Origin: Rhodocyclaceae bacterium
GTDB taxonomy: Bacteria; Pseudomonadota; Gammaproteobacteria; Burkholderiales; Rhodocyclaceae
DNA: 64,000 nucleotides
Assembly: GCA_018262775.1 (NCBI GenBank)
Contig: JADFDU010000044.1
Coordinates: 62,001 to 126,000, forward strand
Direction of reading: 5' to 3'
Both the position numbers and the translations under genes were made by a program. A model generated the notes under the pieces. That model ran no database searches. It was not told the DNA's origin and saw only the letters and a list, made by a program, of their open reading frames with translations. Below, piece after piece: positions 39,301-41,321 of this stretch; the first letter of the stretch is position 1; each line of letters opens with the position of its first letter.

Positions 39301-39654
39301 ATGGATCGCATCTTCATAGAGGAACTGCGCGTCGAGGCCTGGGTTGGCATCTATCCGCGCGAGCGCGCGGCACGGCAGACCATCGAGATCAGCCTCGAGT
39401 TCGGCGTGCCCGACGCCGCGGCGCAGCATGATGATATCGCCGACACCATCGATTACGCCGAAGTGATTGCGCGTATCCGCAAGGAACTCGGCGAGCGCCA
39501 TTTCAACCTGCTGGAAACGCTGGGGGAATATGTCGTGGCGCTGCTCACCGGAGATTTCCGCGCGCCCTGGGTGAAAATTTCCATTGCCAAGACCGGTGTG
39601 GCGAGGGGGGTCAAGCGGGTCGGCGTGGCTATCGAGCGGGGCAGGCTGGGCTAG
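39301..39654 (+). CDS. folB: dihydroneopterin aldolase
   Basis: 117 residues. FIEELRVEAWVGIYPRERAARQTIEISLEF at the N-terminus, the catalytic region DTIDYAEVIARIR and FNLLETLGEYVV fit FolB, which splits dihydroneopterin in folate synthesis. Adjacent plsY-folB is a conserved pair. The stop overlaps the ybaK stop by four bases in a tail-to-tail arrangement. Confidence 0.94.
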   Translation: MDRIFIEELRVEAWVGIYPRERAARQTIEISLEFGVPDAAAQHDDIADTIDYAEVIARIRKELGERHFNLLETLGEYVVALLTGDFRAPWVKISIAKTGVARGVKRVGVAIERGRLG

Positions 39655-40142
39655 TCGGCCAAGCCGCACTCCACCTGTATGGGCGTCAGCACGCGGATGA
39701 TTTCGTGCGGCTGCACGCCGACGAGGAAACCGCGCCGGCCGCCGTTGATGTAGATCAGCGGCAGGTCGAGGATAGTCTTCTCGACATACACCTGCAGGGC
39801 CTTCTTCGTGCCGAAGGGAGAGGTGCCGCCTACCCTGTAGCCCGTGTGGCGCTGCGCGACCTCGGGTTTGCAGAGGGAGACGCTCTTGACGCCGAGTTGC
39901 CGCGCCAGGTTCTTCGTGGACACCTTGCGGTCGCCGTGCATCAGCACGATCAGGGGTTTGTCGGTTTCGTCCTCCATCACCAGCGTTTTCACGACGGCGT
40001 GCTCGTCGACGTTCAGTTCGCGCGCCGACGTGCGCGTGCCGCCGTGCTCCTCGTACTCGTAGAAGTGATTGGAATGGGCGACATGATGCTGCCGGAGAAA
40101 CCGGGTCACGGGCGTTTCCGGGGCATGATCCTCATGTTTCAT
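39651..40142 (-). CDS. ybaK: Cys-tRNA(Pro)/Cys-tRNA deacylase YbaK-type
   Basis: 163 residues from the ATG at 40142. The family segments GTRTSARELNVDEHAVVKTLVME, KVSTKNLARQLGVKSVSLCKPEVAQRHTGYRVGGTSPFGTKKALQVY and IYINGGRRGFLVGVQPHEI include the catalytic lysine region and GG-SPFG motif of YbaK. It hydrolyses Cys-tRNA(Pro) to protect translation. Upstream lies the candidate small RNA gene transcribed in the opposite direction. Confidence 0.93.
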   Translation of the reverse strand: MKHEDHAPETPVTRFLRQHHVAHSNHFYEYEEHGGTRTSARELNVDEHAVVKTLVMEDETDKPLIVLMHGDRKVSTKNLARQLGVKSVSLCKPEVAQRHTGYRVGGTSPFGTKKALQVYVEKTILDLPLIYINGGRRGFLVGVQPHEIIRVLTPIQVECGLAD

Positions 40143-40194: not shown

Positions 40195-40223
40195 TTGAAC
40201 ATCAGGCGTCGGCGGGCTATAAA
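40195..40223 (+). promoter_or_regulatory. sigma-70 promoter of the candidate small RNA
   Basis: TTGAAC (40195-40200), a 17-base spacer, TATAAA (40218-40223). Four of six -35 positions and five of six -10 positions match consensus. It points away from ybaK and towards a hairpin-rich, ATG-free stretch; no annotated plus-strand gene lies downstream before xerD, which is on the other strand. Confidence 0.6.
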
Positions 40224-40229
40224 GAAAGT

Positions 40230-40387
40230 GTTCCCATCACTTGGAGAACGCGTCGGAAGAAACTGGAAGCATCGTTTCACCGAAGTAGCCCCCTTACGGG
40301 ATCATCGATCCCGCCCTGCGCCCCCTAAAGGCGCTGCGTCGAAGTCGACGCACGAGAGCCCCGCAATCGCGGGGCTTCTCAATTTAA
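40230..40387 (+). ncRNA. candidate structured small RNA, about 155 nt, unknown family
   Basis: Between a good promoter and a terminator-like hairpin the plus strand contains no ATG and can fold into a row of local hairpins: 40230-40249 (one bulge), 40259-40278 (short), 40297-40313 (CGGGATC/GATCCCG), 40318-40334 (GCGCC/GGCGC), 40335-40352 (TGCGTCG/CGACGCA) and 40357-40376. The start of the first hairpin coincides with the predicted transcription start. It does not look like 6S, tmRNA, 4.5S, RNase P or a riboswitch I know. The flanking genes ybaK and xerD both lie on the minus strand, so the unit is independent of them. Inference only; no transcript evidence. Confidence 0.5.
40357..40387 (+). 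terminator. terminator-like hairpin ending the candidate small RNA
   Basis: AGCCCCGC-AATC-GCGGGGCT is an eight-base perfect stem with a four-base loop, followed on the plus strand by TCTCAATTT. The U-tract is interrupted but clearly better than on the minus strand, where GCTCTCGTGCG follows. Confidence 0.6.
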
Positions 40388-40400
40388 GGACTTCTTTCGT

Positions 40401-41321
40401 TCAGCCGCGGGGATGGTGCTGGGCGTGCAGTTGCTTGAGCCGCTCCCGGGCGACGTGAGTGTAGACTTGGGTTGTCGAAATATCCGCATGACCGAGCAGC
40501 AACTGCACGACGCGCAGGTCGGCGCCGTGGTTGATCAGATGGGTGGCGAAGGCGTGGCGCAGCGTGTGCGGCGAGATGCGCGCCGGATCGATGTCTGCCA
40601 GTGAAGCGTAGCGCTTGACCAGGTTCCAGAACATCTGTCGCGACAGCCCGGTGCCGCGGCGCGTGACGAATACCGCATCGCAGTTGCGGCCGGCAAGCAA
40701 GCCTGCCCGCGCGTCTTTCTGATAACGCGCGATCCAGTCCAGCGCCTCCTGTCCGAGGGGCACCAGCCGTTCCTTCGCGCCTTTGCCGAACACGCGCACC
40801 ACGCCCTCGTTCATGCCGATCTCGAACAGCTTCAGGGCGACCAGTTCGGAGACGCGCAAGCCCGTGGCGTAGAGCACTTCGAGCATGGCGCGATCGCGCA
40901 GGCCGAGCGCCGTGTCGCAATCCGGCGCCGTCAGCAGCGCTTCCACCTGGGCCTCCGACAGCGTTTTGGGAAAGCGCTCAGGCCGCGGCGGCGGCTCGAT
41001 GTTCAGCGTGGGATCGGCCTGGATTTTGCCGATGGTCAGCAGGTGCTGATAGAAGCGGCGCAGGGCGGAAATCAGGCGACGCTGGCTGGTCGATTTGGCG
41101 CGTCGGCTGAAATCGCGCAGATAGTCGTGGATGTCGACCGGCGAGACCTGCTCAAGCGGCACGCTGCGAGCGCCAAGCCATGCGGAAAATTGCATCAGGT
41201 CGGCGCGATAGCTCGCCAGGGTGTTTTTCGACAGGCCGGCTTCAAGCCACAACGTGTCCGTGAAAGCATCCAGGAATGCCTGGTCGGTTGCGCAGAGTGC
41301 GGGCCTGGGGGTTCGAGTCAA
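40401..41321 (-). CDS. xerD: site-specific tyrosine recombinase XerD
   Basis: 306 residues. An N-terminal SAM-like domain (about 10-100) precedes the catalytic domain with Arg in LYATGLRVSELVAL, HxxR in SPHTLRHAFATHLINHG and the later His and Tyr in LLGHADISTTQVYTHVARERLKQLHAQHHPRG. With XerC it resolves chromosome dimers at dif. The TTG start overlaps the ogt stop (TTGA), so xerD is the last gene of the TAXI-TRAP transcript. Confidence 0.93.
   Translation of the reverse strand: MTRTPRPALCATDQAFLDAFTDTLWLEAGLSKNTLASYRADLMQFSAWLGARSVPLEQVSPVDIHDYLRDFSRRAKSTSQRRLISALRRFYQHLLTIGKIQADPTLNIEPPPRPERFPKTLSEAQVEALLTAPDCDTALGLRDRAMLEVLYATGLRVSELVALKLFEIGMNEGVVRVFGKGAKERLVPLGQEALDWIARYQKDARAGLLAGRNCDAVFVTRRGTGLSRQMFWNLVKRYASLADIDPARISPHTLRHAFATHLINHGADLRVVQLLLGHADISTTQVYTHVARERLKQLHAQHHPRG

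Follow-up and report, generated by a model that had tools for sequence, protein, structure and literature searches.

Does the gap between ybaK and xerD, in the 64,000-nucleotide stretch of DNA analyzed here (the window), hold a gene of its own, and how would its product act? Both neighbors lie on the minus strand, with the ybaK ORF at 39651-40142 and xerD, assigned from its ORF and from relatives, at 40401-41321. The original prediction had placed between them, on the opposite strand, a small RNA unit made of a promoter, six consecutive hairpins lacking an ATG, and a terminator. We found the -35 box TTGAAC at 40195-40200 and the -10 box TATAAA at 40218-40223 of the plus strand, separated by a 17-base spacer, followed by six hairpins from 40229 to 40377 and a terminator-like end, and no ATG was present within 40224-40387 of the window. 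The RNA would extend over about 155-160 nt (40230-40387, plus strand, both ends predicted), and a covariance model built for it matched 15 of the 16 genomes of the genus. Folding of 40228-40392 yielded -75.7 kcal/mol (z = -5.85), and the 3' portion (40283-40392) gave z = -6.94; in each case none of the 200 shuffled sequences folded as well.

The promoter is conserved in the relatives. All 14 aligned promoters retain the 17-base spacing, and the alignment shows preserved boxes flanking a variable spacer, with mean pairwise identities of 95% for the -35 box (CTTGAA columns), 45% for the spacer, and 100% for the -10 box, where CTATAAA is invariant. In a fifteenth genome (G006) the -10 element reads CTATAAC and the spacing is unchanged. 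A scan for consensus promoters and terminators near the locus listed neither on the plus strand; the plus-strand signals are credible because they are conserved in relatives, not because they match a consensus. On the minus strand the scan returned a promoter-like site before ybaK (40179-40151) and a terminator-like site (40249-40230) that corresponds to hairpin P1 read in reverse, each kind being no more numerous than in shuffled sequences. The predicted terminator was borne out only in part, as the stem of P6 is conserved but the U-rich stretch following it is weak, with only 5 T per 10 bases in the window copy and 4-7 T per 10 bases across copies, and the terminator is absent from the consensus-scan list. 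Relative to the minus side, T residues after the P6 stem are in excess on the plus side in 14 of 15 copies, and the remaining copy has equal numbers. Two genomes, G015 and G007, possess a second terminator-like hairpin downstream of P6, resulting in two in tandem.

Selection on the transcribed region follows the predicted fold. Across 14 genomes, mean pairwise identity was 59% for the upstream region on the ybaK side, 83% for the RNA body, and 47% downstream of it; the four-fold degenerate sites of xerD were 68% identical (105 genome pairs). Within the RNA, the 91 paired columns were 94.2% identical with no gap columns and the 62 unpaired columns were 67.6% identical with 18 gap columns, a comparison tilted toward the paired counts, since the alignment that was scored also supplied the consensus structure; when the structure mask was shifted circularly, none of the 147 shifts gave a difference as large. 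The hairpins, whose coordinates come from this consensus structure, are unevenly constrained among the 15 genomes. P1 (40229-40250), which probably forms the 5' end, is 94% identical in its paired columns and 84% in its loop and bulge. The stem of P3 (CGGGATC/GATCCCG, 40297-40313) is 98% identical around a 3-base loop of 52% identity, P4 (40318-40334) exhibits 99% in the stem and 73% in the loop, and the terminator stem P6 (40356-40377) shows 96% and 53%, respectively. Unpaired positions change at about the rate of the xerD four-fold sites, which is slower than the flanking non-coding DNA. Since they are 68% identical compared to 45% for the spacer and 47% for the downstream region, some single-stranded contacts may matter, and the most conserved of these parts are the P1 loop and bulge, the P4 loop, and the P2-P3 linker (72%).

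The original prediction had pointed to compensatory changes among relatives as a test of the stems, and these were detected in 4 of 46 pairs (7 cells). One pair occurs in each of the outer and inner helices of P2 (40253-40283) and two are located in P5 (40336-40351). The window copy carries two of the four, those in the P2 outer helix and in P5, while the P2 inner change is found in G001 and the other P5 change in G010. Of 500 shuffles, 21 reached four double-change pairs, 13 reached seven cells, 4 the paired-cell share of 96.2%, 70 the covariation score, and 454 the number of further pair types; a control with the partners slid by one column gave 3 pairs and 7 cells. With stems that vary so little, the covariation is modest and no more than suggestive.

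The RNA matches no Rfam family. When the whole window was searched with Rfam 15 at gathering cut-offs, only two tRNAs were reported and nothing at the RNA locus, in agreement with the earlier failure to recognize a family. Relaxing the search of the RNA stretch to E ≤ 10 gave three sub-threshold matches, all situated on the P6 terminator stem: RsmY at 16.9 bits (minus strand) and 14.4 bits (plus strand) against a cut-off of 57, and CRISPR-DR10 at 13.2 against 39. The new RNA shares with RsmY and other CsrB-type RNAs the form of its terminator stem and the presence of several GGA triplets, but it differs from them in that the GG is paired in most of its triplets and CsrA was not found in the six genomes tested. 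It resembles 6S RNA (RF00013) in length and in its high degree of structure; however, 6S RNA forms one long rod opened by a central bubble, whereas the new RNA is a chain of hairpins. We rejected an identity with 6S RNA because its covariance model has no match at the locus and 6S RNA was located elsewhere in all seven genomes tested. The new RNA is similar to S17/bdhR1 (RF02278) in being an intergenic betaproteobacterial sRNA with its own promoter and terminator (here a predicted promoter and a terminator-like end). S17L is about 190 nt long, and S17S contains a 27-nt fully conserved region that holds the single-stranded Sites 1 and 2 (PMC11722255); the new RNA lacks a comparable conserved single-stranded stretch. 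An identity with RF02278 was likewise rejected, as that family has no covariance match at the locus and occurs at other loci in six of six genus genomes tested; in G002, for example, RF02278 lies at 514166 and the new RNA at 364432. The window genome has one clear and one sub-threshold RF02278 match (G000:C12:55183-55248 and G000:C17:38816-38880). The S17 paper lists the Desulfobacillus genome as a carrier of an S17-like RNA (PMC11722255), and we infer that this is the RF02278 locus found here. A limited search of the open-access literature revealed, among the titles listed, none reporting the new RNA, and the main text of the species paper on Candidatus Desulfobacillus denitrificans does not use the words ncRNA, small RNA, noncoding, intergenic, or Hfq.

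How might such an RNA act? Our best explanation, for which we judge the chances to be about even, is a stand-alone gene whose RNA product acts in trans by way of its hairpins. A sigma-70-type promoter directed away from ybaK would drive a non-coding transcript of about 155-160 nt that folds into six hairpins and stops at P6, shortly before the 3' end of xerD. The RNA would act in trans via these folded hairpins, binding a protein or making loop contacts and perhaps being held by Hfq, and would use no long linear seed. We favor action through hairpins because the stems are near letter-identical and the unpaired stretches are far more variable. Most known sRNAs act by seed pairing, and a conventional Hfq-dependent sRNA that uses a short seed to pair with mRNAs near their ribosome sites, as described for the S17 RNA of Bordetella, is the main rival here, though a less likely one. 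Hfq was detected in all six genus genomes tested, the RNA has its own predicted promoter, and its unpaired positions exceed the flanks in conservation, the P1 loop most of all. On the other hand, no more than two successive columns combine conservation of at least 85% with an unpaired value above 0.6, the best short conserved unpaired stretch is the 4-base UCAC of the P1 loop, and the U tail is weak. CsrA was not found in any of the six genus genomes and a ProQ domain in none of seven genomes, with the E. coli positive controls detected in both searches; we thus dismissed a CsrA sponge of the CsrB/RsmY type and a ProQ-dependent sRNA. Six genomes (G000, G001, G002, G009, G010, and G011) combine the presence of Hfq and 6S RNA with no detected CsrA or ProQ domain. 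The short conserved unpaired runs, together with the presence of Hfq and the failure to find CsrA or ProQ, led us to give most weight to action in trans through the hairpins. A more specific and quite speculative version is that the RNA serves as a genus-specific scaffold or decoy for an RNA-binding protein for which control by an sRNA is not yet known, with the stems of P1, P3, and P4 as its binding sites.

The conserved hairpins might instead belong to the minus strand, as a structured 5' leader or attenuator of ybaK or as the 3' end of the xerD mRNA. Both genes are on that strand, P1 read there is the only site that the scan reported as terminator-like, and the two strands differ little in single-sequence energy, with plus lower in 11 of the 15 copies, equal in 1, and minus lower in 3 including the window copy; these energies discriminate little between the strands. 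Read on the plus strand, the 690 pair cells comprise 621 Watson-Crick, 55 G-U, 1 A-C, and 13 other combinations, and an A-C on the plus strand is a G-U on the minus strand, so the ratio of 55 to 1 favors the plus strand, although the count was built on a plus-strand fold that allows G-U pairs and is therefore biased toward that strand. When each strand was given its own best consensus structure, the energies were -67.1 for plus versus -58.1 for minus, with 57 and 18 G-U cells, respectively. The conserved plus-strand promoter boxes and the excess of T after P6 on the plus side also argue against a minus-strand element. Furthermore, in a 53%-complete metagenome-assembled genome (G005), all that is left of ybaK between folB and the RNA is a remnant of roughly the first 23 codons (836-904 of locus L003), while the promoter and RNA are intact, which is evidence against a ybaK leader. 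We consider a minus-strand element very improbable, and we rate equally low a cis role in which the act of transcribing from this promoter disturbs ybaK or xerD while the RNA made is of little importance. The arrangement, back-to-back with ybaK and convergent with xerD, would suit such interference; however, interference would not require the stronger selection observed on RNA pairs than on loops, and the RNA is retained in G005 without an intact ybaK.

Perfect palindromes, such as that of P3, could also reflect a DNA-level element, i.e., an operator, a repeat, or the end of an insertion sequence. We regard this as very doubtful, as five of seven genomes have the exact P3 palindrome just once and the other two lack it, each genome contains one strong copy of the unit by the covariance model (additional matches reach at most 26.6 bits), and the G-U bias is strand-specific. 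A small protein gene is hardly plausible, for although the window copy has one frame open from TTG or GTG and an ATG is present in 10 of 15 copies, ATG is absent in the other five (including the window copy), the open frames are uninformative because all three plus frames are open in 5 of 15 copies, changes and indels fall mostly in loops, and the distances between invariant anchors in the 15 copies (63-68, 30-32, and 39-41 bases) vary by non-multiples of three, so that no reading frame is kept throughout. The claim of a structured RNA thus finds agreement in the preserved promoter boxes around a variable spacer, the selection on paired positions, the strand-specific G-U pairs, the compensatory pairs, the lack of a conserved frame, and the lack of an Rfam match, and on this comparative evidence the structured plus-strand RNA gene is very probably real.

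Returning to the stand-alone RNA gene, we examined its distribution. Of the 16 genomes that belong to this GTDB genus, 14 showed the unit by blastn, and the covariance model matched one more, with best matches of 138-184 bits per genome; among the high-quality genomes of the genus, six of seven matched. Candidatus Desulfobacillus denitrificans (AP021857.1) is a member of this genus. An exact pattern of the 5' part of the RNA hit 13 stretches in the collected genomes, including AP021857.1, and the other records carrying it are titled Rhodocyclaceae, Rhodocyclales, Betaproteobacteria, or Pseudomonadota, along with one Sulfuritalea sp. Covariance searches of 297 family genomes and 399 order genomes did not recognize the RNA outside the genus. 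In the family run, 11 genus members had strong matches of at least 154 bits (the weakest member scored 138 bits in the genus search) and matches outside the genus at E ≤ 0.01 reached at most 37.4 bits; nine of these weak places, inspected by eye, looked like coding sequence or like gene ends that carry ordinary terminators. Three order genomes matched at E ≤ 1e-6, one being the RNA's own locus and the others scoring 34.2 and 31.2 bits, with a likeness that by eye is mainly in the terminator. Diverged relatives may be missed because the family and order runs had stricter filters and covered larger groups. We rejected a mobile origin, as blastn at E ≤ 1e-5 gave no plasmid or phage match and the exact pattern was not present in viral contigs. 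The RNA represents a new, genus-restricted family within a familiar class, the intergenic sRNAs of bacteria.

The neighboring genes indicate how this restriction may have arisen. The gene xerD adjoins the RNA in all 15 loci and ybaK in 14, and the xerD-ybaK gap in the genus measures 211-315 bases. In other genera of the family, ybaK is close by at 8 of 20 xerD loci, where the gaps are 8, 12, 31, 63, 76, and 79 bases in six and 662 and 872 bases in two. Because the two genes are only 8-79 bases apart at six of these eight loci, the genus appears to have acquired the RNA gene between xerD and ybaK. One member, G008 (98% complete), has no RNA in its 113-base xerD-ybaK gap, where by eye a CCTTGAA-like piece is kept. 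This genome groups with G002 and G013 in a tree of XerD plus YbaK (support of 94; support is weak at the deep nodes of the genus), and because it is nested inside the genus, the RNA gene was probably lost in G008. The same gap contains a putatively REP-like inverted repeat, CGTCATTTCC...GGAATGACG, which may resemble the REP sequences common in proteobacteria.

Present between xerD and ybaK in a single genus, with one loss inside it, this RNA illustrates clearly how an sRNA is gained and lost. It is a well-supported RNA family with no match in Rfam 15, and the genus to which it is added has received little study; the named member of that genus is a denitrifier from an anammox reactor. The scaffold or decoy reading, tentative as it is, is set in bacteria where CsrA and ProQ were not found, and the stems it would use, those of P1, P3, and P4, are nearly invariant. 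Near-frozen stems combined with more variable loops are unlike what is expected for a seed-based sRNA and suggest that the RNA acts in a structure-dependent manner.
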